From assembly GCA_947034895.1 (NCBI GenBank), contig OX344763.1:71009093-71073092 (forward strand): a DNA stretch of 64,000 nt, given 5' to 3'. The position numbers and the translations under genes are program-made. Under the pieces are notes generated by a model, which had not been told where the DNA came from, did not search any database, and saw nothing but the letters and a program-made list of their open reading frames with translations. Of the stretch, positions 10,557 through 49,778 are shown one piece after another; the first letter of the stretch is position 1; each line of letters begins with the position of its first letter. This DNA is from Rhytidiadelphus loreus. Lineage: Eukaryota; Streptophyta; Bryopsida; Hypnales; Hylocomiaceae.

Positions 10557-10737
10557 AAACAACATGCCGTAAAACTCGCGGAAAGTGCCACTAAACACCA
10601 TCCTAAACTGCCCTAAAAGTCCGGGTGGATAAGTTAACTGAAACTTACCGCTGAAAATCCGGAATCCGGGTTCTGACTAAGACCCGGAACTCTAAGTCTA
10701 ACAAAAAGATAACTAAAAACACTATCAGTCTAACTAA

Positions 10738-12655: not shown

Positions 12656-13084
12656 CCGTCTCACCTCTCCTATCGCGATAACCCTTACTCACCACACTTT
12701 CTCTCACTATCAGCCAGATGCGGAGCAACTGAAAGAGGGCGAGAAATGAGGAGGAACTAGGTTTATATAGAAATCCTGCGCCCAACGTTCACTGTAACGG
12801 GAACGCAGGCTACGGAACACCGTAACGTATCCCTAGTCTATCGCCGCAAGCTATTGAATTTAATGCCTGCGTTCCGGGTTCCTGTATTCCGGCTCCTGAA
12901 TCCGTCCACCCGGATGTCAAGTTCCGTCATGCTTCCGTACTGGTTCCGGAACGAAGTCTAAACTAATTCTAAGTATTTATTTGTTTCCGCTAATCTATGC
13001 CTAAACTAATTTTTTTCAATTTTGATCTATTTTAATTTTTCTTAGTCTATTAAGGTCCATACTAACCTATTATGGATTCCGACA

Positions 13085-26248: not shown

Positions 26249-27795
26249 AGAGATGACTCGGATTCAGATTCCGAATGAAGCCGAATCAAACACTATTGTA
26301 GTGTTTGTCTTACAATATGGACTCTTGATTGTAATTTAGTTGTTTGCCATACAATGATGCAATATAGAATGTAGCAAGCATAGTGTAATGATGTCAATGA
26401 GTGGTCGTCACGTATAGTGCAAAACCGCTACAAATATAATGTATTGAAATATATTATTAGAATGATAGATTTCTCATGTTCATGGTATTATTGAATGCCA
26501 TTGATGTGCAATGGATTAAGTCATGGTGTTTTGGAAGCTAAGTATAGCAATGGCCCAGCTTTTACCATTTTGTCATTCGAATGTGAAAATATGAATGCAC
26601 CATCGTAGATGGTAGGTTTATTCCAAATGTTTATGGAAAATATTGAAGTGCTTCGAACCTATTGTATACAATTTTTATTTTTTTGAAAGCATAAGGTAGC
26701 ATGTTATATTTTGTAGACCCTCCGTCATAAAGTAAATTGTCACTTATTAGTACATCTATGTCCAACACACACCTTGACCCTTGTGAATTATGATGGACAA
26801 AAATATTTGGAGTCACGGTTTTAATATTTGGTAATCTTCCTATTCTTCCTATTAAAAACATAAAGAAAGAATGCTTAAATTTAACTAATATAAATTTATT
26901 CCTATTTTTTTTATTCCCAAAATTTCATTCAAAATTTCATAACTAATTCCATGAAGCTTCATGTAATAGTAAACGACTTGATTTACATGTCAATTTTCTT
27001 TGTCTATCAAGGAAATTTCATTGAAAAATACTTCAAGTTGTTTCACCTCTTTGAAATTAAGTTGCAGCCCTTACATGGTCTAATTTTGTTTTGTGGATTT
27101 CCTACTTTAACCCCAAAAGTGATTTTGTCAAACAAAGGGGGACAAAATTAATTTCGAGCAGGCTTCTCTGATCTCATTTTTTACTGAAATTTTTTGGAAT
27201 TTTTTCATAAGATAGGTAAATTGATGAGCTTTTCGGGACTATAATTTTTATTTCAGTGGTGCCCATGCGCAAAAGTTATTGCACCATAACCTATGAACTT
27301 CAAAACGGCTAAGACCGGGCAACCCAAAAAATCCACTAGAAATTTGAATCAAAATTGGATATTTTTTTTCTTGTACATTATATTTTCTTCTAAATGGGAA
27401 GCTTTGATTCATTTCAATTGGATTAATGATGTGAAAGTTATGGATTTTCTTATTTTGTGGGCAATCATACGAATATCTTGAAAGAAACTTTTTTCTTCCA
27501 CTTGGAATGCTAATATTTTTCAATCTTTATGGTCAAACATCACCAAAAATTGATAACATGATGTAAGACAAGTGTAGGATAAGATCAATCTAATTTTTTT
27601 TTCAAAAATTTACTTCATAGGTGAACGTAGCAAAATTGACAATTTTCAGTGGGTTAGGCCCGAAAATAGCTTTTATAGTTGGGACTTTATGGGTTAGGAT
27701 CAATTCTACAGAGCATGTTATAAAATAAACATAAATGTATATATCATGTTGGAATTTATATATGTATATATAATATTATATGAAAATGATAGTTA
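26249..27795. other. AT-rich non-coding DNA
   Basis: No coding potential beyond short chance frames, and no RNA gene recognised. Confidence 0.5.
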
Positions 27796-27970
27796 TCGGA
27801 GTCGTCCGATCTGTCGCACAATAGATCGTCTGACTCACGGGGGCCGTCGGATCGATCGGATGGCCGATTAGTCAAATGCGTTGTAGACGTCCGATTTCCG
27901 ACGCGGACCGTGCGACGGAAAAAGTGTGTTGGAAATGTATAAGAGCATTGGACGGGCCCGTCCGATCCTC
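27796..27970. repeat. GTCCG word array 5
   Basis: Words GTCGTCCGATCTGTCG, GGCCGTCGGATCGATCGG and GACGTCCGATTTCCGACG. It lies upstream of the kinase-like gene. Confidence 0.65.
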
Positions 27971-28149
27971 ACTTTTGTTTTCTCCCTTGCATATCACAAG
28001 AGTGAAGCGGAGAGCTTGGTGGTTCATGCCCCCATTGGTTCCTCTTCTCGGGAAAGCAAGAATGTAATGTTGGGGGTCCCTTATTGCCATTTTTTTCAGT
28101 GTTGGTGAGAGTTTCACTTGAACTTGAAATTATCATTTTACTTTGCGAA

Positions 28150-28390
28150 TATTCATTCGTACAAAAAGTTCATCAAGATGCTACAAACAAAGAAGGCTAC
28201 ATAGAGAAAACCAATGGAGTACGAAGGAGGTTTACACAATGAGGCAAGTAGGGACATTCCCTCTGATGCATGCAAGAGATTTCTGATCAATTTGATCGTC
28301 AATTTCTATGAGTCGGAAACCACAATGTCACTACACAACAAATACGTAAGGTACAACAAGGAGTGCTCGCAGAAATTCAAGGTGGACAAG
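28150..28390 (+). pseudogene. Kinase-like gene, 5' part
   Basis: An open frame leads through YKKFIKMLQTKKAT, an in-frame TAG, MEYEGGLHNEASRDIP and ECSQKFKVDK to exactly 28390. Joined to 50881 after removing the nested elements with one TSD copy, it reads on as FKVDK-WQLMMNALSV without a break. The segment is helical and charged and lies N-terminal to the kinase-like domain. The true start is not identified. Confidence 0.65.
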
Positions 28391-29181
28391 TGTTGGAATC
28401 TGTAATAGTTTTAGACGGATCATAATAGACTAGAAGAAATTAAAGTAGTTCAAATTTGAAAAAAATTAGTTTAGGCATAGAGAAACGGAAACAAATAAAT
28501 ACCTAAAATTAGTTTAGACCTAATTCCAGAGTCAGTATGAGAACATGATGGAACTTGACATCCGGGTGGGACGGATTCAAGAGCCGGAAAGCCGCTGGAA
28601 TGTAGTCATTAAGACAGTAGCTTGCGGCTCTAGACTAGGATCCATTACGACGTTCCGTAGCCTGCATTCTCGATGGAGTGAACGTTGGGCGTTGGAAGGG
28701 TATATATACCACTCTCCTCTTCATTTCTCGCCCTCTTTTAGTTGCTCCGCATCTGGCTAATAGTGAGAGAAAGTGTCGTAAGTTAGGGTTACGACATTAG
28801 GAGAGGTGAGACGGATGGTAGGGGTTAGTACGTGGTATATTGTACCGGCCCGAAAACTCAGTCCAGTCATCTCGACGGATCCAGTTCACCTGCGCCAGTT
28901 AGAGAATGACTTGAAGGTCTTGGGCTGTGTAGGTTTTCTGAAGAAACCCTGGAACGTCCAGAGTGATCAGGTTCTTCGGGAGTTGGCAGTGGGGGCACCG
29001 AACCAGTACGATTAGACTGTGCGAGGGCATCCGGATAAGTGGACGGAGCAGCTCTGGGCGGAAGTTTACGGCTTCCCGCAAACCAGAGACGAATTCGCCA
29101 CCCGGACGAACCAGTATCACCAACACAAGTTTGTGAATCCGCCGCACGCGAAGGAGGGGTACGCCATTAAGGACTGCCGAG
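28391..29181 (+). mobile_element. LTR-like element copy 3, left part
   Basis: Starts TGTTGGAATC (28391) after ACAAG (28386-28390), is collinear with the 5' ends of copies 1 and 2, and stops inside the gag-like ORF at 29181. The missing remainder is at 48302-50875. The two parts together make 3365 bp, against 3380 and 3448 bp in the intact copies. TATATATACC at 28701-28710 sits at the promoter position of the other copies. Confidence 0.85.
28815..29181 (+). pseudogene. Gag-like protein of copy 3, N-terminal part
   Basis: Starts MVGVSTWYIV at 28815. It is collinear with copies 1 and 2 through LKKPWNVQSDQVLRELA and EGYAIKDCR, where it is cut by the 19-kb insertion. One TAG at 29013 stands where copies 1 and 2 have CAG (Gln). 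The frame resumes exactly at 48302 (DERHKRLLWF). Confidence 0.7.
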
Positions 29182-30005
29182 CAAGGTTGACGAATTGCAA
29201 CGTCCAGGGCAAAATCACGTCCATTTTTCGGACGTCCGGATGTCCGGAAGTCCAGATTTTCCAGACATGCGGACGATGTGGACGGCGTCCATCGGACCCG
29301 TTGGACGTTCAGACAGTGCGGACGGGCGGTCGGCGCGGACAAGCGGACGGCCATCGCGGACGAGTGGACGGCCATCGCAGACGGGAGGACGACGCAGTCG
29401 GCGCGGTTGACACGAACGGCCCGACCACAATAAAATGTCATAAAACATGATTTTCAGACCTCTTTTACGCATAGTAAAATGTCTTTCTTCAAACAACTTT
29501 TCACTACAAAAAGGTTGGAAATGAAGCCAAGTTTCACCTCCAACAATCCGTTTCAAGTTTCGACCTTCCAACAAAAAGTTATGAACCATTTTCTAAGGCT
29601 GTGCTTGAAAATGGTCAAAAAATTGCCATCTGCTCCTCCAACGGCTTGTCCGCTTTTCCGACCCGCTGTCTGCCCTTTCGGACAGCCCGTCCAAACTTCT
29701 GCCGACCGTAGTAAAATGCCATAAAACATGACTTTTAGATCTCTTTTACGCATAATAAAATGTCTTTTTGCAAAAAACTTTAAACTACAAAAAGGTTGGA
29801 AATGAAGCCAAGTTTTACCTCCAAAAATCCTTTTCAAGTTTTGACCTTCCAACAAAAAGTTATGAACCATTTTCTAAAGCTGTATTTGAAAATGGCCAAA
29901 GAAATGCCGTCTTCTCCTCCAACCCCCGTCCAATCATCTCACCACCTGATCGACGCTCCGAGTCTCCAATCCGCCATCCACCTTTCCGACCCGCCGTTTG
30001 CTGGG
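29182..30005 (+). repeat. Left terminal block of the 19-kb element
   Basis: Terminal AAGGTTGAC, then GC-rich GCGGACGAGTGGACGGCC-type words to about 29420. Two tandem copies of a repeat follow (about 29431 and 29710) containing AAAATGTC, CTCTTTTACGCATA and AAAAGTTATGAACC. The same repeat occurs on the plus strand at 43393, 43723 and 44131, and on the minus strand near 47085, 47445 and 47725. Confidence 0.75.
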
Positions 30006-30614
30006 TGTAAGTATGCTAGACCTTATACTTTTTCAAGTCACAAAGCAATTTTTTAGGACAACATGAATTTGTACTTGTTATTATTTGAATTTAAAAGCTT
30101 GTTTTGTATGTTTTTTTTGTTTTTCTAGACATTATACATGTGAAGATCCTGTGGGCTTTATTGATTTCTTTGAATAACTAAGTTTAGAGTGAGAAATTTG
30201 TACTTTTTGGATTGTTAGTAAAAAATCACATGGTACTAATTAAAATAAAAGTATAAATATCTTGATCATATAGAGTTGAAGTGCTAGGGTTTTTTTGGAG
30301 AAAAAATAAGGAGGGGCAATGTTTTGCGAGGGTGCTAGTTTGTAAGCCTAAAAGCGTGAGCCTGGGAGCCTGGGAGCGTATGAGCCTTCAATTTTGGAAT
30401 TTTCTTTTTGTGATTTTTTAAAATAGGACCTATTACCGTGGTTTAGAGCCTATGCAATCTAGATTTTAGGCTCATTTATATTTCAAGGAGATTAGAAATT
30501 CTGTATAACAAAAAACGGTAAGGAATATCATATATGAAACGAATAGAACATACCAAAGCCTTGAAAGACATCAAAACTGCAAAGAAGTAGGATAGACAAA
30601 ATTCAAAGAGTAGA
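30006..30614. other. Non-coding DNA downstream of the methyltransferase-like gene
   Basis: AT-rich. It includes the likely 3' untranslated region of the minus-strand gene ending at 30615. No gene seen. Confidence 0.5.
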
Positions 30615-33600
30615 TTAGTGGCCACTACTACTAGAAGATTTGGAACTAGAGTTGTCATCAGAATTGCATGTCTCACCGTCTGATTCTCTAGCCATATCAT
30701 CTACAAATATCAGAACACATGGATCTACCTTGGGGCCCTTCACAAAAGGTTTAGGATCATGGATAACAAGCTGTGAGGCTATTGCCTCAGCATACACTAG
30801 CAACTCAAAAGACTTTGGTGGACTAGGGTCTTCAAGGAACGGTCGATGGGTGGAAATCTTCACTTTTTTTGCTTGCCTACACACTCAAATGAGACCACAC
30901 ATAAGAAAAACGTACAATTGAAAAAAATGAAGGTCAAAATTCAGAAGCCCAGTGATAAACTTACTTACTGAATTTTGAGGTCTTCACAACTTGGCAAATG
31001 GGCACCTCTTCATCGTCAAGACTTAGTGGAGGGGCTTTAGATTGAACAGGTACTGTCTCAACAGTCGGCATGGTGCCAATGAATGGAGCGAGAAGGGCAT
31101 TGAAAATGGCCTTATCTGCTTCCAATGCCACGATATGACGACGAGTAGCCCGACATGCATAGACGGTCGCACCTGTAGATACAAAGATATGATTCACTTG
31201 GGCCGACAGAATGCAAAATATTTTAACAGTTCAATGCTAAAACAATGAGTGCTACCTGAGGGTGACCAAAAATTAACATCAATAGTAATGACAGAGGAGA
31301 GAAATTGATCATACAAAAAAACAAGGTATGATTGGTCAAATGGTGAAGGATAACAAACCGGTAGATGCGGTGCAATCCAAAACGATGTCACCAGGTGAGG
31401 TAGTTGCTTGAACAAGCATTTTCATTGTGGAAATTGCCTTCTCTCGAGGACCCCGCCAAGGTGAGTTCCCATTCATGGCCACGTCATTGATACCACTGAA
31501 ATTTTGCAACATGTCATCTCGAGCCAAGTTCATGCCAGCTTCAACATGTTCCTCGGGACGGCTCTGGAAAGAAAACCTGCTCTTACACGGACCATCTAAA
31601 ACTTTGACGTATAGAGAAGCCATGAAGCGCATAGTCTGCATAGGAATTCATCGAAAACGATTAGTACTTTAAAGTAGAGTACAATATATGTTTAGGCGCA
31701 TGCAAACTATGAGGCTAGGGGAATTACCGTGGTAGAGTGGTCCGAGGCACACGTCAGATGGAGCCAATTCATGCCGTGCCATTCCTTCTGTAGTTTGAAA
31801 TCGAATGACTTGCAATTTCCTAGCAAGTGGCTTTTAATATTGCGGCAAAATGGGTAGATGACAAGAAGAGCCCCAGCATCATGTAGGTAGCTCTCTGCAA
31901 AGTCAAAGATATCTCGAAGTCCGTCCTCTGAGAACTGATTCCATTGGGGGATAGAGTTCGGAGGATCGGAGACTGTCGGGACCGGTAAACCCTTCGGGAC
32001 ATCCACCACAATCAAGTCTACCGCAGCCTGTCCAGTTACAACGCCATTGAAAAATCTCTCCTTGTCCTTGGCGTGCTGCGTTCAAAAGATAAATCAGTAA
32101 AGAATACAAGTGACAACGGATTAAACGAAACTAAAAGGAACCTATAGGAATAGGTGGACACATTGAAGCGCAATTGAATTGAATCAATATAGACAGAAAT
32201 AAGATGTAGTTACCTTTTCTAGTATAGAAACGATGTCAGTGAATGCGTCAAGTACAAGCCCTACATTAGATGCAATAAGACTAGAAATGGATATGTTAAG
32301 AATGCACTGATCCACACTAGGGAGCGCATCCAAGTCATAAACTTGCGTTGGAAGTCCATGCTTCAGTTTCTCTTGCATCAGAGAAAAACTTGACGAGGTG
32401 TCCTTTATGGCCACATCACTTGTTGCTTGCTCTGGAGTGGCATCCTCAACTTTCCTCTTCTTCCCCTTGCCCTTCTTTTCCTCTTTGGCCTTCTCAGCTT
32501 TGGCCTTCTCATCTTCTCTTGCTTTCTTCTTTGCTTCGTTCTCCTCATTCTTCTTCTTCGTGGATTTCCATTTCTCCTCCTTCATCTTGTTAGATCTCTC
32601 TCTCCTCTTCAAGGCCTTCTCGTCTAAGCCACCAACTTCGTCATTCTCGATCACAACAACGGGGTTGTCTTTGATAGATTGAAATAGAGCCAACTCCTGA
32701 GGAGGGGTGAAGGCGCCATTGCAATCTAGATACCATGCTCTAGATTGCAAGTGGGTAGTAGGCCAATTCTTCTCCTGAGATGCGGAGAACATGCAATCAG
32801 GTGACCTAAGTTCAAGCCATGTGGCTAGAAAAGGTGGTAAGGCGGCCTTATCGATGGCCTTCTTTGCAAAAAGCTCATATTTGAAATACCTACCAAAACA
32901 ATAATCAATATTCATTAATCAATAAGATATCTATATAAATCCACACACAAGAACAAGAATATGAAATGAAGGCATCATATTACCTGTATATGACTCTCTT
33001 CACAACAACAGAGGAACCCTTGAAATCCTTGAACTCCTGAGATTTCTTGAATCCTTCGGGTCCTTTGAACACTCTAGCATAGGCATGGTCCCATATCCTC
33101 ATCCGCCAACTCTCTAAATAATCTACAAGAGATTCTGGCTCCACTACCACCTCTGCATTCAATGTAATATTGTCTGCCCGAATGATAGACTCATACATCT
33201 CCACGGCCGCATCTTCAATCTGTGGAATGACAATTACATGATTCAACAACGAGGGAACCATATCCGATTCCCACTATACCGAATAGATGATTAGAATTGA
33301 TTTAGATCTAGATCAAAAAAGAGACTCAAGCAAACCAGAACTAACCGAGGTAATGATGTTTGCCTTGGATGGTAGACTTGAATACAAATGTGATTGCAGA
33401 AGAAACATACCACGGCATACTAGCAGGCCTTGGAGAGGAAAGAGTTGATCTTATCATTGTTAGCTGGTCGAGGGGGGAATCTTCGAGCCTCTCGTGTTGG
33501 AGCAGAAGAATTCATCCATTTAAGCCACTTCACTTTGTGATGGGCACTAGTATTAGCGGTGGCAATCAATTGAAGCTTGTCTAAAGTCAGCTCCTAGACT

Positions 33601-35159
33601 GCATACATGCTCCAATGCCTCTCAATCTGAAAAATAGACTAGAAATTAATGATCATTGAGCACACTGATTGAGCCATTGAGAAAATGACACTGATGTAAA
33701 ATCACTAGAATAACTAACTCTCTGAGGCACTTGAATTCAATCCTAGGATAGGAGGCAGTCACCAAAATCATCTGGAACTAGAGACTTCTGATCATACCTC
33801 TTCGAGCCATGCATCACCTAATGCTGGGTTTGCCACGGAAACAATTTTAGAAAGTTTCTTATAGAGCTTGTCTGTGGCGTCCTTGGTAGCAGTCCTCATT
33901 GCTGCTGCAACCTCCAAATCAGTCTTATCCTCTTCAATAGTATCCTCATGATACTTTTGAACAGCTGCATCTGCAGCAACCGCTATGTCTTGCTGAAAAA
34001 TCAAGAAATATTTGTTAAATTGATATGATATGAGAGAATGGTATTGAAAAATCCCAAAATTTAGAAAATTGAAAAGATGGATCATAATACATTGTACAAA
34101 CAAGCTACAATGCACCTGAAATATGAAGCCTGTGAAGACCTCCAAAGGCATGGAGTACCACGTTTTTCGAGCATTCAACTAGCAGAACTTGACATCCTCG
34201 GCACTCAGAAGTTCCTTGAATTTCTCAAGGGGCAAGGACCCGTACTTGCGAACACGATAGAGTGTATGCACAAGGTTCGTTTTCACATGGGAATTTTCAG
34301 TGTGTCTGAGTAAAATATAATGGACACAAAGTTAGTACACATGAAGTATACTAGAATTCATTAGATAACGACATTAGAAGGAAATAAATGAAATTGAACA
34401 GGATTTAGAGTCTCACTTATTAATGTCGTGCATGACCTGCATGGCTGCACCCATCCGCCCCTTGGTTTCCAACAAAATTGTGTCCACAGCAATATGCCAT
34501 ACGGGATCAGTACTATGAAGTTGATTAATATGACTCATCCAGGCGATGCGCCTATGGTTTCCGTCGCATAAAAATAATTTAGCATCCACCAAATGCTTGA
34601 GCTCCGAATGATTGTTCAGCTCTGCATTGAAGTCATCATTGACCTTGTTCCAAATGGGTCCCCACTCCGACTTCTCTACATCAGTGAAAAACCTGGACTC
34701 TCCTTGCTCATCTGACACTGAAGCATAAAATACTCGAGCTCCCTTGTCATAGCCGTGAATGAACTCCTACTCAAGTTTGATCAAATTGCAACTCAAAGTA
34801 GGTCTCACCATGGGCATGGGTACCAAACGGCATAGGGGGACCTTTCAACGAGTGAGACCATGTGGTAGGATCTGCAAACTAGTAATGGTTGCCACATAGT
34901 CCATCTTCTGAGATCTTCGAATGGCATCCTCTCCCCCCAATTGTGGTCCTCCCACCACTCCATTTTGGTTGGGCATAACTTCGACAGCAGTCTCCAAATC
35001 AACACTTGATGGAAGCTCCACCTCAGTCACCACTACGAAGGAAACCGTCTGCAATGGTGGATTCATTGTAACTCCCAACAAAGACCCCTAGATACATAAC
35101 GAGAAACAATAATTAGAAACAGAAATAGTAATTCCAACCATCCAACCCGTGCCTGTGAG

Positions 35160-35690
35160 TCCATCTCGGTGGAGAGAGCACCATCGACCCTCCCCTTGCG
35201 GTGGGATGCAACCCAAAAAAATGCACAGGGAGCCAGCATGCTCACCTGACCTAACCAATCTCGGTGGCGAGAGCACCATCGACCCTCCCTCGCGGTGGGA
35301 TGCAACCTAAAAAAAAAGCACAGGGGTCCCGCTTCCTTACCTGGTCTGAAAAGCCTCGGTGGCGAGAGCACCTTCGACCCTCCTCTGGAGGTGGGATGCA
35401 AACCAAAAAAAATGCACAGGGAGCCAACTTCCTTATCTGCCCTAATTAGTCTCGATGGCGAGAGCACCATCAACCCTCCCTCGCGGTGGAATGCAACCCA
35501 AAAAAAAGCACAGGGGTCCAGCTTCCTTATCTGGTCTGAAAAGCCTCGGTGGCGAGAGTACCATCGACCCTCCCTTGGAGGTGGGATGCAAACCAAAAAA
35601 AATGCATAGGGAGCCAGCCGACCTACCTTGCCTTGGCAGGTTCAGCGGCGAGAGCACCAACGTCCCTCCCCTTGGGTGTGAAATGAAAAT
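35160..35690 (-). repeat. 95-bp tandem repeat array in intron 1
   Basis: Five full units and one partial, starting near 35164, 35262, 35356, 35452, 35546 and 35641. Each starts with CTCGGTGGCGAGAGCACCAT and includes CCCTCC, GGTGGGATGCAA, an A run and GCACAGGG. Two subtypes alternate, so the higher-order unit is about 190 bp. Read with the gene, some units contain a pyrimidine-CAG followed by CAGGTAAGG, resembling splice sites. Open frames here are repeat-generated. Confidence 0.85.
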
Positions 35691-35729
35691 CAAAAAAATT
35701 TTAATGATTGAAAATGGCTACAGACCAAA

Positions 35730-36007
35730 CACTAGAAGAAAGTCTTGTTTAATTGGATGTTCTTGCGTCAAAGTTGACGGATTTTCGTAAGCATCCAATG
35801 TAACATCTTCATGTGTTTATATCAACAATGACATCCAATGTAACATCTTCATGTGTTTATATCAACAATGACATCCAATGTAACATCTTTATGCTACATT
35901 GGATGTCATGGTTGACATAAACACATGAAGATGTTACATTGGATGCTTAAGAAAATCCGTCAACTTTGACCCAAGAACATCCAATTAAACAAGGCTTTCT
36001 ACTAGTG
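35730..36007. mobile_element. CACTA-type MITE, 278 bp
   Basis: The element is almost a perfect hairpin: CACTAGAAGAAAG at the left is inverted as CTTTCTACTAGTG at the right. Both arms carry AATTGGATGTTCTTG, GTCAACTTTGAC and ACATCCAATGTA-type blocks. A 3-bp AAA is duplicated at 35727-35729 and 36008-36010. CACTA ends plus a 3-bp duplication fit the CACTA (En/Spm) superfamily. It lies in intron 1 of the methyltransferase-like gene, seven bases from the exon 1 donor. Confidence 0.85.
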
Positions 36008-36098
36008 AAATTACCTCGGTCGTAGCTTGCGCTACATCTGCTCTTTCCGATTCCGCTTAGGCTTGACGGGACAAATCTCGAGCTCTTCTAGTCTCCAT

Positions 36099-37828
36099 GG
36101 CGCCAATCTGAGAAAGCTCCAACCACGTTCTTGACTCCAGGAGAAACAAGGGCGAGCATAATCTTCACTTAGTCGTCTATGATGCCCTATACCCGTGGCT
36201 ACTACGCCGTAAAGGAGGAGCCATTGTCCATTTGCAATTTCAGGATTTTGATCCCCAGGAGGTTCAGCGATGAATGGAATTTGAACTCCTACCTTGTCCG
36301 TCGAGTAGGCGGAACTCACACATGTGTCTTGGCACAAGTCCAATAATACATATCTCGGTCTGATATTTCTGAATGTACATGGGTTTTTGCTCTCTATTTT
36401 TATTATATTATCTCCGAAGTTACAAAGTTCACAGATCTCTAACCTTGGAGAGATAACTAAATTATTTGGACTAGGTATTTCATTTGTGCTCGTGTTCTGT
36501 ATAAAGACAACAATTTTCCTATAAAATATTAATCAATATCCTGAAAGACGATTTTGAATCCATGCCTGCTAAATATAATCCACTATGTGTATAGATTATA
36601 TAGACTATATGAATACAGTGAATAAACATTGGATGCATTAGAAATTATGTGTGGCATCAGAGATCTTTTAATATTAGTATGAAGACATCTAGAGACCCCA
36701 ATGAACATCATTTTTCCCAGACAGCTACGTGCAATGCTACGACAATACCTATTTCACACATAACTGCAAGCTCATATTGCAAATGGAAGTGGGATCATAT
36801 AAGGTACCTCAATGTTGCTATTGGTCGCTCGGACCGTGTCTTCATCTTGTGTTCTTCGTGAATAATGAGATGTGGAATTTGACTGCACATAGGAATCTAC
36901 TGTATTATTGCCTCCCGGCCTTTGCATGGATTCTACTTCTTCTACTATAGTAGATGGTATCACTCTCCGATTCTGCCTCCCTCTCTCCACGGCGCGTGCC
37001 ATTCTTGATCTATTTAACTCCTTCGGACTACTGAATAATAGCTTACGTTTCTTTCGCTTCACACTTTGACTACTACATGGAGGAGCATTTTTGCAAGGTG
37101 GCATCTATAGCAATCCCTACATATATATATTTCTCCCAGGACCAAAAGTGTGACATCTGAGGACCTGCAATCTCTGGAAGGAAATGGATGCGAATTCTTC
37201 ATGTTACAGTCTAATTATTCCCATTAGAGAAAGGGTTGGTATTCTCTCATTATATACTTTCACCACAGTGAGCATCCTCCATTGCATTTCAAGTTCTCAA
37301 ATATCATGTAGGTAATTATGGTCCACCATATCCTTTCTAATAATGAGATCTTGATTTCATTGTTTTCAAAAATTGTGTTAATAGACTGAGACTACAAGTA
37401 GTGAGTTAGTTCAACATATTCTGGAACTACTTCTCTTTTGGATCCCTTCATGATTTGATGACATGAAGGCTTCATCAACTCTTAATTACGAGTACGTAAT
37501 TGGTCATTACGTTTCAATGCTTAGAAATAGTGAATTGTAGTACTTACCATCCTCAATTTGTTTTTGTAATTACTGAAGGACATTGCAGATCTACTGCTAC
37601 GGAGATTTCCCTGTTAACAATTATTTAAATTGTACCTTGGAGATCTGTGTGTGCAATCTTTCTGGCACAACTGTATAGAACAAATTTAGAAGTGGTAGAT
37701 TAGCAACTGAATTCAAATTTGAATTCGGATTTAGGGTTCCTATTTCCTTTGTACTCTATAAGTGGAATAGGGCAGCACTTCTACATAATAACGTCATTTC
37801 TATTCACTGCATAGTAGTTTCAAATTTA
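36099..37828. other. Intergenic region between divergent cargo genes
   Basis: Separates the ParB-methyltransferase-like gene (minus) and the transposase gene (plus), so promoters of both may lie here. A minus-strand open frame at 37104-36803 (MPPCKNAPPC, VKRKKRKLLF) ends at a plausible GTACCT donor and could be an exon of something, but nothing else supports it. The frame at 36343-36032 overlaps the first methyltransferase exon in another frame and is not supported. Confidence 0.4.
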
Positions 37829-40800
37829 GTGCCTTCTAGTCATAGTATCCTGATGGCGTTTGTAAGAGTTGATGGTCATGAGGTTCCCCTCCTTCTTTGC
37901 CTGAATAATATTGGTGTAGCTATTGTGTCTAGTGACCTCCTTCATGTTCGATATGGTTTCTTGGAGTCCTCCATCTATGTCGAGGAGGAGATATATTCAG
38001 AGGCCGGAATACTTCTTCAGTCGATTCTAATGTCCAGGATTAGCAATGAGCATGGATATGAGTGGAATTTACCATCGGGTCATTATCGGTCTTTTGGTCT
38101 ACCCTCAAAGGTTATGGACGCTTCTATTGAGATCCTTATTCCCTTATCTGATGCATCTACAGCTCAAGCTCCTATTTTTAGAGCCGTTAAATGTGAGCCT
38201 GTATGCCCTTCTGCCTCGGATGATCCATTCAGTCCTGTCAATGTCTACCCCTCTGTACGAGAGTTTTTGAGTCCAATCGTCGAGTTATCAAGCGATTCGG
38301 AAGGAGGGCCTACAAATTTTGGTCGTCAATCATCTAATTCTTGTGCGCTCGATGCTACAATGATGGTCGAGACAACCCAATTTGGCGGTGCGCGTGATAG
38401 TAGTGCAGGGAGTTCGTTTTTATCACGCCTACTTCTTTATCCGACAGATAGTCAATGTCCTAGTGTGATGCAGTGCCTTCGCAAATTGGCACTTATGAGA
38501 GGATGTAGAAACGAACTTGCTAATCTCGATTTTGCGTCAGTCGATTACCAAAAAGTCCAGTTTCTTCCGACTAGTTTTGATGGTGACATTGTCTTTGAGC
38601 TCCCACCATGTCATTCCTCGACTTCTTCTAGTTGTTCTAAGACAATGGGGGGCATGGATAAACGTTACGACGGTCATTTATGGTGCCGTACTATGACCTC
38701 AAATATCCACAATGATTTCAGGCTAAAGTTTAGAAAGGCATCTTGTGTTGGTCATTTGGCATGCCTTAACCCTTCTTGCGATTACCTGAAGAGATGCTCC
38801 CATAGAAACGAGACAAAGTGGTTAGGTAACACAAACATTCCATTCCATGTAGGATCGACTCCACCTAAGGACTCTACTGTTGTCTGCAAGGTGTGCAAGG
38901 TTTCACCTACTTGTGTCAATTTCTTCGATGGTAGAATTTACTACGTTGTAGGTCCCAACCAAATGACACGAGCCTGCATCCATCTAGCATCTCACAACCA
39001 CCTAGTGGCCGATGGTCTATGTCAAGATTCTGTGGATACCATTTCACAACTCATTGCAAAAGAAGTATGCAAGATCCCTACTGCTAAAACATTGTCCATT
39101 ACTTTGGCTGCTAGCAAGGAGTTTTTAGACACGTTCTTAGTGCACTCGAACGAAGGTCCAAAGGAAATGCTTCATGGAAAGGCACTTGAAGCAGTTATGG
39201 ATAAATTCCAAGTCCTCAGTTCTCCAAACGTTAGAAATATTATTGCCTCTTTTCATAGTTCTGGAGTCGGAAGAGGGGAGATTGACCGCATACTTGCAAT
39301 GAAAAAGCAAGCTAAGATTGAGTTTATTCATGATAGTGTGTTTCCTAGGCAAGGTCAAGATAAAGTGTACCTTTTTTAAATGCTTGTGGATGGACCTGGT
39401 AGCGGTGTTGATCTCGTGAAGAGGATGCAACCAAGGGGAGATTTGTCAAATTCGTGGTTGATGTTTGACCATATGAAACGGGTGAAAGGGTGGACCACCA
39501 TCGCCTGTCACGTATATGATCCTATCTTCTGCAAAGTGATGACAATTGCAGTCTGTGACATGCAGTCGGAAGATACTGAAGGGCAAGTCATTATGTAGAG
39601 GTGTCTGAACAGGGTAATGGAGAAGAATGGCTTGCTGAATCTGAACTTTAAAGGCTTCATGGCGGACAGTGCCCAAGCCAACTGGAATGCCGTCCGCATT
39701 GTTTATGGATCGGGCGATGCTTCTGTCAAGATGATTGACAAAGAGCACACATGCCTCTTTCATTGGGCTACGTCGATGAAGCAACACACAGAGCAACTAA
39801 TTAAGCATGAATTGCAATGTCAACATGTGAAGCTTTGTAGGGACTACAAAGACGCGGACCCTGGAGGAAGCGGAGAACAAGTACCTTCAAATCAAGGCAT
39901 GGTGGTATTCATTTGGTGTTGCATCTGCCAAATCTCTGAAGGAGCTTGAGCTTTGGCTAGCATTTTGGCACTTCAGATATCGCCAGTGGGGTGGCTTCAT
40001 GGAAACAATGAGTTTTTGTTTTTTCTTCCTCTGAGTTTATTGTCCTTGAAAATGCTTTCCTTCTTTTCATCTGTTTAATGACTTTTGAAGTCTAATTTAC
40101 CAAATTTCATTCCTGTAGGATTTATCAATCGAAGAATTGGCGGACATTCCGTCTTGCAACCTATCCAAGACTGTTCACAACAAGTGGCTACAAATGTCTG
40201 GCAAGCGTGGGACAGATCTACATGTTGCAACATGTGACGATTGGGTTCGCGCTTTTATGCAAATGACCAACTATCGGGTGTATCTCAATGGTGGGCGATT
40301 TGGGCATGGACCATCTCGAGTAGACTTAAAGTTGAAGAAGGCCGTTGCATCTATGGACGGCAAACGAATTACCGATGCCTTATGTAGTATGCCAGGGGCG
40401 GAGGCAGTTTGTACACGAGTTCCTTACTTAGAAGGAGAAGAAGTGTTCGAATCAACCAAGCGGGCGTTGGATGTACCTATTGGATCTGAAGGAGATTCGC
40501 ATCATCCTGACAAGATTAATTACTCACACCCGCGAGTGCATACAAGATTTACAAATGTTCCTATCTGTGATGTGCAAGACGATACCACCCGGATGCCTCA
40601 TGTCAAGCACGTGCTTGAGACAGACTGTGACACTTCGCTTTGGCACATAGCCCACATCTCTGTAAAATCCAAGAGGAAGTGCCATGCCAATCAGTTTGAG
40701 ACGGAGTTGAAGTGCAAGATGAACATTGTCCGAGGCTCTAAAGCTACTGCCGCTCCGCTGTATAAAGGGCAGAAGCATGAGTACAAAGGTACAAGGGTGG

Positions 40801-41492
40801 AAACAGATGAGTTCTGGTTTTGTCCAGACGATATCAAGCGCTGTGTGATGGATCCGAGGAGGTCTCATATTCTGTCTCGACCGGAAATCCCTGAGTTCTG
40901 GCCAGTGATGATCGGTACTGCCCTTACTTCTGATGAGATCATTTTGTTTGAAGAAGCCGGGTTTCGCCTCCAAGAAAGACAATCCTTGTCTCCTCGACGA
41001 TTGTTCACGTCCTCAAAACTATTTGAGGTTGTCGAATGGAACTACGCAAGACCACCTCATGCAGACAAGCCTCCGTGTATTCGCAATAGCAAAAGCATTT
41101 GCAGAAATGAAAAGGCTCCTATAGATGAGCACCGTAACCAATGGGAGGGTGCCCGAAATGTTACCGGAAACATTCTTGGAGTAAACATCTTGCCATACCC
41201 AGGCCTTGGAGCTGTCATCACTCTCCAATCAGGCGTTGAACCTGAGTACAAGGTGTATCGGATCACCCTTTCTAATTTCCCATCGTGCACTTGTCTTTAT
41301 TTTAGTGGTATGGTGTCTGCATCCATTGGTAAGCGAGGCAAATACGTTAATTGCAAACATCTATATTATATTTTTAGATACCTATACAAGGTTGACTGTA
41401 AGATCGATAAGTTCATCCACGCCCCAAGCCTCAATATGGACGAAGTGATGAAACTTCTTGAAAAGGCAAGAATGATTAGAATTTGCGAGTAG
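37829..41492 (+). pseudogene. Mutator-like transposase with SWIM zinc finger
   Basis: The frame from 37829 encodes an N-terminal region with a zinc-binding block (LACLNPSCDYLKRC; VCKVCKVSPTC), then HDSVFPRQGQDKVYLF and a TAA at 39377. The same frame goes on with GWTTIACHVYDP, a TAG at 39596 (probably ancestral Trp), GFMADSAQANWNAVRIVYGS and EHTCLFHW, the MULE RNase-H-like region. A one-base frameshift near 39857 leads into TLEEAENKYLQIKAWWY. An intron follows; its acceptor TGTAG is at 40118, but the donor near 40011 is unclear. The second exon (40119-41492) is fully open and carries a SWIM finger: CTC ... NCKH near its end. The gene mobilises MULEs by binding terminal inverted repeats; this copy is inactive. 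Confidence 0.75.
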
Positions 41493-43380
41493 TTGTTTAC
41501 TACAACTATGTAGAATGGCTTCAACATAGACTTTAATGTTGAACTGATACATTTATCCGTTTTATTTAAATGTACTCCATGTTGTGGGTGAGGGTGTTCT
41601 ATCTACCATTCTTTGAATTGATATCCATGACACTTGTTCTTGCAATATTTTTCTTCCCAAGTCCAATGTGAATACTAAATATAGTATATACATGCCTTTT
41701 TATCAGGAAAAATTTTCTAATCAAGTTATGAAACTGTGAATGTTAACGTGAATTTTCTCCCTAACCAAAAGAAATTCAATTTTTTTTCCCTTCCTTTTAG
41801 ACCTGAAGTTTTTGATTGTTTTCCAGAGATGTTTTCCCTTTATAGTCGTCTCGGTAACGAGAGGACAGTTCAAGTTGTTGTCTTCTATAGCCAAAACAGA
41901 ATATTTGAGCATGAATAATATATATCTTTATATGTATATGATTTTTAATTTTTTTTAATTTTCTGGGCCCAAGCCTATGACTTGAGATTGTTCACATAGA
42001 ACTTGACCGTTCAATATGCATCTCGGTGGCGAGAGTATAGTTGAGACTGATGTTTTATACATCAGAAATTAACAAATATGATACTGATGTTCATCCACTT
42101 TTGGTTAATTTTGGCCCTTTTTTTTAAGGCCACGGGAATTAACCTTGAACACGATGCCACAAAGAATAACTTTTTTAGGTCAACAAATGAAGTTGCCACG
42201 TCATATAATTAGGGATCCACGTCACCCGTGGCCATTCATAAAATGACATGTAGCCCTTTCATAAAAAAAAATTATATTCATAAAGAAGACCTTGAGTCCT
42301 GACCCCATAAAATTGATAAATGAATTTCAGAAATTCCAGTTTCAATTCAACAACTTGGCAAAATCTTAAATTTGAAAAGCAATGGTCTTGCACAATGGTG
42401 TGTGTTAGTCAATTGCTTCACAAATTTGAGATGTCAAGTTATTCCATGCAAATCCTCTTATATGATCTCATGTTGTATTTGACAATGGTTATGGGATATT
42501 TCAAGGTTAGAGTTTCCATCTTGAAGTCAGCCGTTTACATGGCTTAAGTAAGGAAGTCAAATTGTGAACCCAACCCTAACCCCTACAAAAGGTCCTTGAG
42601 ATAGACCCGTACTAATAGGTCCACGATTTTAGGGCCCCAAATTTTTTTTGGTAGATCAAGGAATTGCCGCATGATTTTTGAGGAGATGGGAATTTTTTTT
42701 ATAGGAGCCTAAAATTTGCAACAATTTCAAAAAACATCCTTGGGCTCACAAAATATATGCTCACAGCTCCAAAGCTCGCGCTTTTAAGCTCACAAACTAG
42801 TATCGTTGAATGTTTTGGAATCTATTTTCAATTTAATATTTACAATCCATATTTGGCAGAATCTTAGAAATAAATTAGTTTTGATTTGCAACAAATATAT
42901 GGTGGAAAAATAAAACTTCTTTTCCATTTGATTTAAGATTCTGAATGGCAGCAACTAGTTTTCGAATGGCATCAAGTCAAATAAAGAAAAATATCAATTC
43001 TTCATCAAACATATTGTGGTGCTTTTTTGTACAAAGACTACTTTTAATACGTTTTTAATTTTTTGTGGAGGAATATTTCATATGTGCATGGCTTAAGATC
43101 TTAGTGACATGTTCGAAAAACCTCCTATATACTTAATGACTGATCTACAACAATTAATTCCTCCCTCACAATCATTCACTAGTCACAAACATCAATCCTA
43201 AATCCAAGTACACAAAGCACAATTCAATACTCTAAGTTCTCAAAAGTACAATGGAGCATTCCCAAAAATGCATGGGTCTAACGTACATACACCCCACCAT
43301 TCCGACCCACCATCCACCGTTCTGACCCGATGTCCATTCCTTAAGCCCGCCGTCCGGCCTTCTGACCATCCGTCCGACCC
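41493..43380. other. AT-rich non-coding DNA
   Basis: No gene seen. TCTCGGTGGCGAGAGTA near 42020 resembles the start of the 95-bp array unit at 35160-35690, suggesting the array unit exists elsewhere in this element. Confidence 0.45.
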
Positions 43381-45095
43381 TCTGCTGACCGCAGTAAAAT
43401 GTCTTAAAACATCATTTTTAGACCTCTTTTACGCATAGTAAAATGTCTTTTTTCAAAAAACTTTGAACTAAAAAAACGTTGGAAATGAAGCCAAGTTCCA
43501 CCTCCAAGAATCCGTTTTAAGTTTCAACCTCCAACAAAAAGTTATGGACCATTTTTTAAGGCTATGTTTGAAAATGGCCAAAAAAACGCCGTCCTCTCCT
43601 CCGACTCCCATCCACCCATCTCACCATCCAAAGGACCCTTTGAGTATCCAATCCGCCATCCGCCCTTCCCACCCGCCGTCCGCTCCTCCGACCCACTGTC
43701 CGGCCCTTTGCCGACCGCAGTAAAATGTCTTAAAACATGATTTTTAGACCTCTTTTACGCATAGTAAAATGTCTTTTTTCAAAAAACTTTGAACTACAGA
43801 AACGTTGAAAATGAAGTCAAGTTTCACCTCTTAGAATCCGTTTTAAGTTTCAACCTTCTAGCAAAAAGTTATAGACCATTTTCTAAGGCTGTTTTTGATA
43901 ATGGCCAAAAAAACGTTGTCTTCTACTCCTCTCCTCCGACCCCCCGTTCGCCATCTAACCACTCGTTCACCTATTGTACCCTCCATCCAACTGTATTGTA
44001 CTGATGAATTTTAAAAAGTACAGATTCGCTTTTCAAGGCTTCTATTTAATACTACAAAGTAAAAAAGGACCCTTCGAGTCTCCAATCCGCCATCCGCCCT
44101 TCCCACCCGCCGTCCGACCCTCTGCCGACCGTAGTAAAATGTCTTAAAACATGATTTTTAGACCTCTTTTACGCATAGTAAAATGTCTTTTTTCAAAAAA
44201 CTTTGAACTATAGAAACGTTGAAAATGAAGTCAAGTTTCACCTCCAAGAATCCGTTTTAAGTTTCAACCTTCCAACAAAAAGTTAAGGACCATTTTTTAA
44301 GGCTATGTTTGAAAATGGCCAAAAAAACGTTGTCTTCTACTCCTCTCGTCCGACCCCCTGTTCACCATCTAACCACTTGTCTGTCTATTGTACCCTCCAT
44401 CCAGCTGTATTGTATTAATGAATTTTAAAAAGTACAAATTCGCTTTTCAAGACTTCTATTTAATACTACAAAGTACAAACATCGTATATAGCATTTATGT
44501 ATACAAAAGAAGGATAATCCAAGCTAAACTTTCACACATTGAAATATGCACTATAATTGTTATACCTTAAACCCTAAATCCTAGATCCTAGACCCTAAAC
44601 CTTGAATTTTACATTAGTGAACAAACACATTGCTTTAATGTGCAAAATATGTTTGACTTCTTATTCCCTTAAAATGTGATTATCATGATGCACTACATAT
44701 GGATTTTTGCATAGTTCATAAGCTTATTCATATATGTTGTCAACATGTTCTTGGTATTTTCTACATCAATTATGATGTGCCAATTTACAAATGTCAAACA
44801 TACAATTATAATTTGAAGTTTTTTTTCTTTAAATTTTGTTGTAAAATGCATTAATAATTTGAAACATCAAAGTATACATAGTACAAGCAATTATATTATT
44901 TTATAATTGTATTACAAGATGCTACAAAAAATGCTTTAAATATTTTAATGTAATTTAATGTTGTTTAAGATTAAATATTGCATTTATACAACAAAAATAT
45001 TATTGAAGTTATTTTCCTACACCCTTATACCTATAAATTGTAAATCGTCAACTATATATCTCATATGAAAAATATTGGTGCTTGAATAGTTTAAA
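43381..45095 (+). repeat. Left arm of a large inverted repeat (foldback)
   Basis: Inverted at 46115-47735 with high identity. It carries three tandem copies of the ~350-bp AAAATGTCTTAAAACATG repeat separated by GTCCGACC-rich minisatellite, then AT-rich DNA with a CCCTAAA-like motif near 44570-44605. The matched small open frames on both arms (44388-44570 and 46651-46833) are symmetry products, not genes. Confidence 0.85.
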
Positions 45096-46114
45096 ACATA
45101 ACCGACCTTTGTCGAACATGAATACATGATGGCCCCTCATATGATCCCTTCAACACTTTTGGGTTCCTTATTTTTACTTAAGAAGATTGAATTGATCATT
45201 ATTTAATTAGACAAGAGATTTTATTGCAATTATATTGTGGGAGATCTAGCATGCTTGGTTAATTATATATATTACTAAAAGTCAAACTATATAGTTTTTC
45301 GTCTTTTAATCCAATCGATATTGTATTCTTCAAGGTTTTAAATTACGGAATTTTCTATAAAATCATTTGTAAATGCATTATTTTATAGTGTTTCTACAAT
45401 TCTTTGGTGATAAGTTTGCGGTATACATTTATATTTCTATTTGTACTAATTTCTTTGGTTTTGTTAATTTATATTGATAGTAGTATTGAATTTTTGGGGG
45501 AAAGTTAAAAGACTATTTTTTGAGATGATGTCTAATATTTGTAAAGATATTGAGATACTTTTCTAAATTTTTAATGGCAAATTCTTTGTATGGTGAAATA
45601 AAACTCAATAGTTTGTAAACTAGAATTTTGTAGGATTAGGAGTTTATATATTTGTCACATTATCTGATTGTCAAAATTTGAATGTCAAAAATATTTAAAA
45701 AACTTATTTATCAAATGTAGTTTAATAAAAAATGTTGGCAAACATAATGTTTTTCAAATGAAAGAAATAATGGAGATGAAAAGAAACATTTTCCCTGACA
45801 TTTCTAGTCTTTACTTTATATAAACAAATAGCCCTTTGAACTTTTTTTTTTAGTGTTTATTCTTAGCAATTTAAAAAATCATAGAATCTAGTGTGATAAA
45901 GAACAAAAAATATATTAAAATGATTCCAAATTTTTTGAAGATGTTTCAAAAAATAAACTAATAATATAAATTATTAAATCACAATTGCACATGTCACATT
46001 TACAAAAAGATGAACTGAAAACATCATTATTGATGTATAAATACATTACAAATATATATTAATGAGGGTCATCATAGTCATATACAAAAAATCATCACAT
46101 TTGAAGGTTGATTA
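45096..46114. other. Loop between foldback arms
   Basis: About 1 kb of very AT-rich DNA with no gene, separating the two inverted arms. Confidence 0.6.
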
Positions 46115-47735
46115 TATTTTAAACTATTCAAGCACCAATATTTTTCATATGAGATATATAGTTAACGATTTACAATTTATAGATATAAGACTATAAGGGT
46201 GTAGGAAAACAACTTCAATAATATTTTTGTTGTATAAATGCAATATTTAATCTTAAACAACATTAAATTACATTAAAATATTTAAAGCATTTTTTGTAGC
46301 ATCTTGTAATACAATTATAAAATAATATAATTGCTTGTACTATGTATACTTTGATGTTTCAAACTATTAATGCATTTTACAACAAAACTTAAAGAAAAAA
46401 AACTTCAAATTATAATTGTATGTTTGACATTTGTAAATTGGCATATCATAATTGATGTAGAAAATACCAAGAACATGTTGACAACATATATGAATAAGCT
46501 TATGAATTATGCAAAAATCCATATGTAGTACATCATGATAATCACATTTTAAGGGAATTAGAAGTCAAACATATTTTGCACATTAAAGCAATGTGTTTGT
46601 TCACTAATGTAAAATTCAAGGTTTAGGGTCAAGGGTCTAGGATTTAGGGTTTAGGGTATAACAATTATAGTGCATATTTCAATGTGTGAAAGTTTAGCTT
46701 GGATTATCCTTCCTTTGTATACATAAATGCTATATAGGATATTTGTACTTTGTAGTATTAAATAGAAGTCTTGAAAAGCGAATTTGTACTTTTTAAAATT
46801 CATTAATACAATCCAGCTGGATTGAGGGTACAATAGGCAGACGAGTGGTTAGATGGTGAACAGGGAGTCGGAGGAGAGGAGTAGAAGACAACGTTTTTTT
46901 GGCCATTTTCAAACATAGCCTTAAAAAATGGTCCTTAACTTTTTGTTGGAAGGTTGAAACTTAAAACGGATTCTTGGAGGTAGAACTTGGCTTCATTTTC
47001 AACGTTTCTATAGTTCAAAGTTTTTTGAATAAAGACATTTTACTATGCATAAAAGAGGTCTAAAAATCATGTTTTAAGACATTTTATTGCGGTTGGTAGA
47101 GGGTTGGACGGGCCGACGGAAGGGCGGATGGCGGGTCGGAGGAGCGGATGGTGGGTGGGAAGGGCGCCGGGCGGATGGCGGATTGGAGACTCGAAGGGTC
47201 CTTTGGGTGGTGAGATGGGGTGGATGGGAGTCGGAGGAGAGGAAGGCGTTTTTTTGACCATTTTCAAACATAGCCTTAGAAAATGGTCCATAACTTTTTG
47301 CTGGAAGGTTGAAACTTAAAACGGATTCTTGGAGGTGGAACTTGGCTTCATTTTCAACGTTTTTTTAGTTCAATTTTTTTTGAAAATAGACATTTTACTA
47401 TGCGTAAAAGAGGTCTAAAAATCATGTTTTAAGACATTTTATTGCGGTCGGCAGATGGTCGGACGGGCCGTTGGAAGGGCGGACGGCGGGTTGCAAGAGC
47501 GGTTAGCGGGTCGGAGGAGCAGACAGCAATTTTTTGGTCATTTTCAAAAACAGCCTTAGAAAATTGTTCATAACTTTTTTTCGGAAGGTTAAAACTTGAA
47601 ATGGATTTCTAGAGGTAAAACTTGGCTTCATTTCCAACATTTTTGTAGTTCAAAGTATTTTGAAAAAAGACATTTTACTATGCTTAAAAGTGATCTGAAA
47701 ATCATGTTTTATGTCTTTTTACTGCGGTCGGACAC
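46115..47735 (-). repeat. Right arm of the large inverted repeat
   Basis: Reverse complement of 43381-45095. It begins AAACTATTCAAGCACC, passes a TTTAGGG-like motif near 46620-46650 and ends with three tandem repeat units. The left arm has an extra ~190-bp internal duplication near 43940-44130. Confidence 0.85.
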
Positions 47736-48292
47736 AGGACTAAGAAGATTGCAATCTTTAGAGATGTCCCATAGTTGGAGTTTTTGTCCAAATTGGATGT
47801 ATTATATACCATTGAAAAGCTATGAATGATATCTTTCCAATGGTATATTATGGTGCACATGAATGTGGACAGAGCGTCTGATGGTCAGGCATTTGACTAG
47901 ATGAGCGAACGGTATCGATTCATGTATTTTGTTGTCCACTCGTCCGTCCGCACCGACTGCAAGGCCGACCTCGTGGCCATTCGCATGCCTGGTCGATCGC
48001 GTGGCCGTCCGCCCTGTCGACTTCATGGCTATCCGCCACTCCGCCCAGCCGACCGCATGTACGTCAGTCCGTCGGAAATCTCAGTCGGCTTGTCCGCTCT
48101 GTGGTATCCGTCGAAAGTTTTGGTCGGCTCGTTTGCGATTTGCCCGTCCACTCGATGCCGTCAAAAGTTTTGGTCGTCCGCCCGTCTAGCTGTCAGATGG
48201 TAGTCACCGCTAGGTATGTCAAAAGACGTCCTAGGGTTAGCGCCCGCGGACTCTAGACGTCCAGCCTCACGCCTGGACGCCTTGTCAACCCT
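47736..48292 (-). repeat. Right terminal block of the 19-kb element
   Basis: GC-rich words (CCGTCCGCACCGAC, GGCCGTCCGCCC) lead to the terminal GTCAACCCT at 48284-48292. Read inward from the right, AGGGTTGACAAG and GCGTCCAGG match the left end AAGGTTGACG ... CGTCCAGG. Similarity is at the word level rather than base by base. Confidence 0.65.
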
Positions 48293-48301
48293 ATTGCCAA
48301 G

Positions 48302-49778
48302 ACGAGCGGCACAAACGGCTGCTCTGGTTCATCTTCCCGATTCTATACTTGGACAAGAGTTCTCGGGTCACGATGGCCAACACCATATTCGGATCGTACA
48401 CTAGGGACGGGTCATGGCGAGCATGGTAGGGAGGTGTACCGAAAACCTGACAAAGAGTAAGTCGAATCCGCTCAGCAACTACTTGCTCCACATGTACCAG
48501 CACCAGGAGCTACTAATGGAAGATGAGGCGACGGATTACGAAACTGGGCTAGTCATGTTGGAGTGCAACTTCTCGGATGACAAGGATCTGGAGACGCAGG
48601 AGTCAGAGAACGAGGAAGAAGACGTCAAATCGGAAGGGAAGGAAGAAAAGGTGGAGCCGGAAGAGAAGGTGCCATAGAAGGAGAAGGAAGACCGAGAGGA
48701 GGCATCTACAAGCCGGAGACCGAAGTCTATGGATCCGGCAGAAAGAGGTAAATTTCCGGATCCCTCCCTCACGCAGGATGTGAAGACCTGGGAAGGACCG
48801 CGATTCTTCGATGCCGGAGAAGAGTGGATCCGGACCGCCAAGCTATACCACAACCGACTCGCAGACATCGTGTTGCGGTCGACAGATGTGATGCAGTGCA
48901 ATCCGGAAAAACTCGTGGACGTGCTGAAGATGCTGGCCCCGGAGAAAGAGTGGGACGAGATGAGGACGGAAATCCGGAAACTCAAGACAGAACGGGAGGA
49001 GTTGATGGCCAAACTCAACTAGATGGAGGGGGAGCTGCACCAATCCCAGCAGGCAACACAGAAGGCCCACCAGGCATTCCAGACGTTCTAGAAGTGGATG
49101 GTGAGCCCGGCCGACCTATATTCCAAGGCAGCACTCTATGATGAGATGTAGAAGACATCCGCAGCCCTCACCAACACCAAGATAGTCCGGGTTATGGTGG
49201 AGATGGTTGGCAGAATGGAGGCGTCGTTGAAGGAGTTCTGGTCCATGATGGCGAACATGGATCCGAATAAGCTCCTTGACTTTGGTGGTTTTCCGGAAGT
49301 CTCGGATGTCATTGGAACTCCATCAACGCAACCACCAATCTCACCAGCAAAACGGACAAGTCAGTTTGGGTCACTAATCAATATCGTGACCGGAGGAGGA
49401 CAGAGTCCCACATTTCCGGATATGGGGATTCCGGTCCGGAGTAGCCTGGATGCCCGGATCAAACTCGTGCAGAATCCGGCACGCACGCATCCGGAGCAGT
49501 TTGCGGACATCGAGCCTCCTCCAACCGAGCCAATGCCTACATCGGATCCTATTCACATAGAGATCTCGGAGGAGGTGGAGGTAGACGAGGATCCGCAGTC
49601 CTTGGAGAAAGCAGATCGATCGCTAGTCCATACGGACGATATGGAGTCGGACAGTCCCTTTGTCCAGAAGACCTCGATCATTACCTGGGTGTCTCTTCGA
49701 ACACCACAAGGAAAAGCCAACACCCGAGGACAGTTAGGATTCAACAACAGCTCGAAGAAACAACGGAAGGGAAAATAG
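48302..49778 (+). pseudogene. Gag-like protein of copy 3, C-terminal part
   Basis: Collinear with copies 1 and 2 from DERHKRLLW through the acidic linker, coiled coil and basic KKQRKGK end at 49778. It has small indels near 48390-48420 and TAGs near 48675, 49020, 49090 and 49148. At the last three, the other copies have Trp (TGG), Gln (CAG) and Gln (CAG), so each is one transition away. Confidence 0.65.

Follow-up and report, generated by a model that had tools for sequence, protein, structure and literature searches.

The window analysed here, a 64,000-nucleotide stretch of the moss Rhytidiadelphus loreus (contig OX344763.1, positions 71,009,093 to 71,073,092 of the forward strand), holds a 12.5-kb DNA transposon in which a transposase gene lies head to head with a second, intron-rich gene whose predicted product is ParB- and DNA-methyltransferase-like. 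It is this inner element which carries both genes, and it is nested in an outer repeat at 29182-48292. In window positions, the features of the inner element are as follows.

30327-42808, no strand assigned: inner element carrying the transposase and the ParB-methyltransferase-like gene, 12,482 bp, with ends common to sister copies
30318-30326, plus strand: left target-site duplication of the inner element, AATGTTTTG, exact in 9/9 bases
42809-42817, plus strand: right target-site duplication of the inner element, AATGTTTTG, exact in 9/9 bases
30327-30360, plus strand: left terminal inverted repeat, 27/34 bases equal to the reverse complement of 42775-42808
42775-42808, minus strand: right terminal inverted repeat, 34 bp, imperfect, pairing with 30327-30360
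37829-41492, plus strand: transposase, with coding sequence at 37853-41492 in two exons, of which the second starts at 40119; a broken copy with 94 scored genome matches
30969-35087, minus strand: ParB-methyltransferase-like gene, nine exons modelled (35087-34417, 34305-34116, 33992-33798, 33626-33411, 33219-32984, 32889-32214, 32075-31728, 31635-31359, 31172-30969), with splice signals and exon lengths conserved in sister copies
34417-35087, minus strand: ParB-like domain exon with a DGNHR motif, with a possible fold match to ParB/Noc and, over the ParB part, 37% identity to the Ceratodon purpureus hypothetical protein M758_1G295400 (P0001, 1147 aa)
30969-32075, minus strand: methyltransferase-like domain exons, with DVPKG at the motif IV position and DCTASTG at the motif I position, and with PF01555 and DpnA matches
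36812-37104, minus strand: possible first coding exon of the ParB-methyltransferase-like gene, tentative (MPPCKNAPPC...), an open frame with a possible donor
35164-35618, no strand assigned: tandem repeat with a 95-bp unit, upstream of the ParB exon; short in the window copy and far longer in sister copies

The ends of the inner element are defined by its sister copies, for which ten transposase places were taken at 20 kb each and three of them were extended leftwards. Similarity to the window is unbroken to about 42808 and then ends in 10/10 copies, and beyond the right end (CTAG..CGTTG) different DNA follows in each of the ten copies and in the window, while the left end is common to all three copies that were extended. 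All four copies with two ends are flanked by 9-bp duplications, two of which are exact, one has one mismatch and one has two; those of the sister copies are AAGCTAGAG (exact), GATTGTAGA/GATTGCAGA and GAAAAAACC/GAAAAAAAA. Beside the left end of the copy at C1:67.8 Mb lies a reversed right-end-like stretch of a related element (67% over 448 nt; positions 3391-3818 of the joined L031+L027+L028). The window copy also contains, at 35730-36007, an insertion resembling a miniature inverted-repeat transposable element, with 117-nt arms that are 94% complementary and ends CACTAG...CTAGTG, with AAA on either side, as in a CACTA-type element.

The ParB-methyltransferase-like gene has canonical splice sites, and each exon that a sister copy spans in full has the same length there; in our model the start of the fifth exon was taken from the alignment with the Ceratodon protein, and the first and last coding exons are provisional. 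The predicted product has about 1,000 residues and would combine a ParB-like domain with a beta-class N6/N4 methyltransferase-like domain. The divergent multi-exon gene with a methyltransferase-type domain that an earlier note on this DNA had described is borne out by the C-terminal part, which matches PF01555 (N6_N4_Mtase) on the window over the motif-I half only, with E 1.1e-6 and 29.3 bits against a cut-off of 26.7. The same model scores above its cut-off in a sister copy and in the Ceratodon protein (there over model positions 2-217 of 221, the whole domain), which is alignable over nearly its full length at about 30% identity overall. Searches of the protein database gave no match at E 0.01 or better, either with the full-length accessory protein, for which 7994 candidates were scored, or with its methyltransferase part (2573 candidates).

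The window copy is decayed and unable to work in its present form, because the ParB-methyltransferase-like exons hold five in-frame stops and the transposase has two stops and a frame break. Elsewhere, no stop was found over the nine exons of the C2:10.3 Mb copy, none in the covered part at C1:31.05 Mb and one in the covered part at C1:67.8 Mb, and these counts leave out one stop which the Ceratodon alignment places in an intron. In the region of this gene, 138/335 window-specific changes are C>T or G>A, a spectrum which would be expected for decay through cytosine methylation.

Both transposase frames are open in 8/10 sister copies (785 or 786 and 457 codons), and a SWIM-type CxC...CxH signature is visible in the C-terminal part of the transposase alignment A1. 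The SWIM zinc finger occurs in many plant transposases of Mutator-like elements (MULEs). The Pfam SWIM model reached E 0.039 and 13.9 bits on the window transposase, below the 19.6 cut-off, and no Pfam MULE match was obtained with the full transposase protein of a sister copy or with 12 members of alignment A1. The AlphaFold model of the transposase (predicted local distance difference test score 34.7) was unusable for the fold, and when PDB sequences were searched with a profile of the transposase, the three matches obtained were at chance level (E 0.22 or worse). In the accessible part of one survey, Mutator elements have target-site duplications of 8-11 bp and terminal inverted repeats of 14-500 bp (PMC6446971), and the inner element shows 9-bp duplications in 4/4 copies and inverted ends (34 bp with 27 matches in the window, and the same ends in three sister copies). 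In view of the missing MULE match and the unusable fold model, membership of the Mutator superfamily is not proven, and the label 'Mutator-like' has only the 9-bp duplication and the SWIM signature as its basis. Of the SWIM-type MULE transposase previously proposed, the signature and the duplications were recovered, but a MULE match was not, and SWIM fell below its cut-off. The sister copy at C3:65.3 Mb has a further transposase next to it, downstream and in the opposite orientation, at about 52-56% identity (L015, 2663-6626).

The two genes recur together in the genome, between matching ends with 9-bp duplications, which was the check suggested in the earlier note. We compared 94 scored transposase places among 2084 candidates with 150 scored methyltransferase places among 2530 candidates (270 matches, 150 listed, with 15 for another exon dropped), and a pair was taken as linked when the methyltransferase match lay upstream, on the opposite strand and at most 60 kb from the transposase. 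Among the matches listed, a methyltransferase partner was present for 15/17 transposases at 90% identity or more, 10/15 at 80-84% and 14/18 at 70-79%, and for 0/5 at 59-65% and 0/39 at 53-55%, so that 39/94 scored transposases were linked, or 39/50 in the three nearest subfamilies. Seen from the methyltransferase side, again among the matches listed, the transposase partner was found for 15/18 places at 89% or more, 14/19 at 67-72%, 10/18 at 61-64% and 1/80 at 49-60%. In 500 shuffles, which took C5 as 52 Mb (50.7 by another reading), linked transposases averaged 1.0 and never exceeded 6, against the 39 observed. The zero counts in the low-identity groups may come from scoring only the best-ranked candidates. 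Upstream of one transposase of 54% identity, the stretch encodes a ParB-methyltransferase of 34-45% identity in the same orientation, and the gene pair has stayed together as the subfamilies diverged to this level. One place weighs against ascribing the low counts to the scoring: at L039, a methyltransferase place of 59% identity, no transposase lies in the 4.6 kb upstream. With the gene lying between the inner ends and recurring with the transposase, a DNA transposon that carries a prokaryote-type ParB/DNA-methyltransferase-like gene, as first suggested from the window alone, is supported.

Purifying selection acts on the accessory gene. The whole-gene ratio of nonsynonymous to synonymous change (dN/dS) was 0.25, 0.23, 0.34, 0.43, 0.24 and 0.23 in six pairs of copies, with the pair at 0.43 having only 18 changes. 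When the window was compared with the C2:10.3 Mb copy, the corresponding ratio of proportions (pN/pS) was lowest in the methyltransferase exons (0.21; Fisher p 2.5e-5), followed by the middle part (0.25) and the ParB part (0.36).

The proposal that the element marks its own DNA is more difficult to maintain. The order of the motifs, IV and then I, is that of beta-class N6-adenine/N4-cytosine methyltransferases, and the methyltransferase-like exons match DpnA (5hfj, E 3.3e-6) and show similarity to CcrM. The consensus of the catalytic motif IV is (D/N/S)PP(Y/F/W). At this position we read DVPKG in the window, DVPEG in two sister copies and in L039, DMPEG in L038, DTPF in Ceratodon and DPPY in DpnA, so that the form read in copies and three diverged families alike, D[V/M]P[E/K]G, departs from the consensus. 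Motif I reads DC[T/N]A[S/A]TG in copies and families, DLSASTG in Ceratodon and DPFMGSGTT in DpnA. A DPPN twelve residues past DVPEG was considered as the true motif IV and rejected, because the Ceratodon alignment pairs DVPE with DTPF and DPPN with GFGN, and L038 and L039 read MPPT and APPA there.

With D[V/M]P[E/K]G in the place of DPPY, methylation of the element's own DNA is doubtful. An active N6-adenine or N4-cytosine methyltransferase marking transposon DNA, as proposed for algal elements, would be in line with the PF01555 scores in the window, a sister copy and Ceratodon, with the DpnA and CcrM similarity, with the aromatic residue kept in Ceratodon and with the low pN/pS of the methyltransferase exons, which has to be set against the doubt on catalysis. 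However, both motifs differ from those of DpnA, and we regard such an enzyme as possible but rather unlikely. Given the alterations in motifs IV and I, we consider ordinary adenine methylation less likely than a methyltransferase-like part whose role has changed or is no longer catalytic, such as sensing of S-adenosylmethionine (SAM) or of modified bases, or a scaffold function.

The tandem repeat of 96-97 bp lies between the transposase and the ParB exon in 10/10 sister copies and occupies 4.9 and 6.5 kb of two sister-copy pieces; at the corresponding place L039 has a 118-bp array of 20.6 copies and L038 has short arrays of 76 to 109 bp. These arrays are candidate binding sites for the ParB-like part. 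Taken as a whole, the locus is best explained, with a probability that we put at roughly 0.6, as a decayed transposon with 9-bp duplications, a SWIM-type transposase and a selected ParB-methyltransferase-like gene whose product would be a cis-acting helper. The ParB-like part of this protein would attach it to DNA of the element itself, perhaps to the long arrays just upstream of the ParB exon, and once bound the protein could alter the local chromatin or methylation state and in this way protect or promote transposition.

A more specific version is conceivable, in which a prokaryotic ParB-methyltransferase has been turned into a partition-like non-catalytic complex, with the ParB-like part sitting on the arrays as ParB does on parS, the methyltransferase-like part reading SAM or modified bases, and each copy building a protected or anti-silenced chromatin domain. 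This version is improbable as it stands; if it were true, subfamilies would diverge through co-evolution of array and protein. Still less credible is that the gene was captured once and has been retained as a passenger by hitch-hiking only. The window copy is broken, and gene capture by DNA transposons is known from the accessible text of PMC13317346, but the purifying selection between copies, the conserved exon structure and the transposase linkage kept down to 54% transposase identity all speak against a passenger.

The surroundings of the inner element are an unrelated repeat, which is apparently non-coding, with the following features.

29182-48292, no strand assigned: outer element, the repeat split by the inner element, with empty-site paralogues and with its left arm at 20 other places
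29173-29181, plus strand: left target-site duplication of the outer element, ACTGCCGAG
48293-48301, plus strand: right target-site duplication of the outer element, ATTGCCAAG, with 2/9 mismatches against the left one
29421-29982, plus strand: subterminal repeat array of the left arm, an 83.5% inverted match to 47170-47731
47170-47731, minus strand: subterminal repeat array of the right arm, the inverted match to 29421-29982

The joined flanks of 29182-48292 align straight across in two other window copies of the split repeat, which are empty-site paralogues in minus orientation (20304-19322 at 78% and 12788-11776 at 74%). Because of these alignments and the outer duplication, the boundaries given in the earlier note are right. 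In the outer element, no transposase or methyltransferase gene of its own was recognised. When the left 839 bases were used as a genome query and the best 40 of 1798 candidates were scored (126 matches), the left arm was found at no fewer than 20 other places with the match starting at query base 1 or 4 (29182-29185); because the query starts at 29182, these matches mean that the repeat reaches 29182, not that it ends there. Among the matches listed, all those of the transposase and the methyltransferase are more than 240 kb away from each of the 20 places. The reading of the 19.1 kb as one Mutator-like element with both genes, which the earlier note had favoured, has the real outer duplication and the empty-site paralogues on its side, but is rejected, since the inner ends have their own exact AATGTTTTG duplication, 10/10 sister copies stop at the inner right end, the outer arm recurs at at least 20 places with neither gene inside 240 kb among the matches listed, and copies of the methyltransferase-like gene exist that the 29182/48292 ends do not enclose, an outcome which the earlier note itself had named as counting against its reading.

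Within its right arm, the outer repeat contains a large inverted repeat (44069-45109/46104-47152; 961 nt at 96%, with an 86-nt extension) that encloses roughly 1 kb of AT-rich spacer. The split repeat is one of three related copies of a long terminal repeat (LTR)/gag-like type (10221-13087, 17803-20599, and 27182-29181 plus 48293-50292), of which two run opposite to the third.

Compared with known systems, the accessory gene is of a kind already known, since the accessible text of PMC12477816 reports such a case in Ectocarpus and cites algal ones; what is added here is the host, the probable superfamily, the altered motif IV and the measured selection. The Ectocarpus element Sola1-1_Ec32 (21.5 kb) carries a gene for a 1104-aa protein with ParB and DNA-methyltransferase domains opposite its transposase (PMC12477816). 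Compared by description, it resembles the moss element in being a large DNA transposon with an accessory gene opposite the transposase, a product of about 1,100 aa, and ParB-like and N4/N6 methyltransferase domains. It differs in being a Sola-1 element of a brown alga, whereas the moss element is set apart by duplications of 9 bp, by the SWIM signature of its transposase and by the change in motif IV. The same paper, in its accessible part, assigns green and red algal transposon proteins with this domain pair to Iyer et al. 2011 and Petroll et al. 2025, and the red algal giant elements are classed there as EnSpm. Among titles and abstract openings of the open-licence literature, we found no report of the ParB and methyltransferase pair in a transposon of a moss or other land plant, and only PMC12477816 described the pair. 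The Ceratodon protein, compared as a protein alone, differs from the window gene in having DTPF at motif IV. Along with this relative, the LEAFY genes fit a moss host best: the genome (407 Mb, five large contigs) gave five SAM_LFY matches above the cut-off, and the LEAFY DNA-binding part of the best of these scores 392 bits against 4bhk (FLORICAULA/LEAFY HOMOLOG 1, from Physcomitrella), with the next entry at 298; the Asp in KMRDYVHCY is of the moss type. To our knowledge, the protein VANC has neither a ParB nor a methyltransferase domain. As a MULE-borne gene product serving escape from silencing, it is nevertheless the closest working analogue: VANDAL is described, in the accessible text, as a MULE whose anti-silencing protein VANC targets non-coding DNA of the element that encodes it (PMC13317346).

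In algae, ParB-methyltransferase proteins had been put forward as what may be a new class of transposon accessory protein. The moss case, with its many copies, its purifying selection and a transposon that makes 9-bp duplications, takes the phenomenon into a further host lineage and, probably, a different superfamily. In addition, the altered catalytic motif raises the question of whether such proteins methylate transposon DNA or are enzymes turned into binding modules, and with numerous intact-frame copies, in plants of a transformable group, this would be a testable system.
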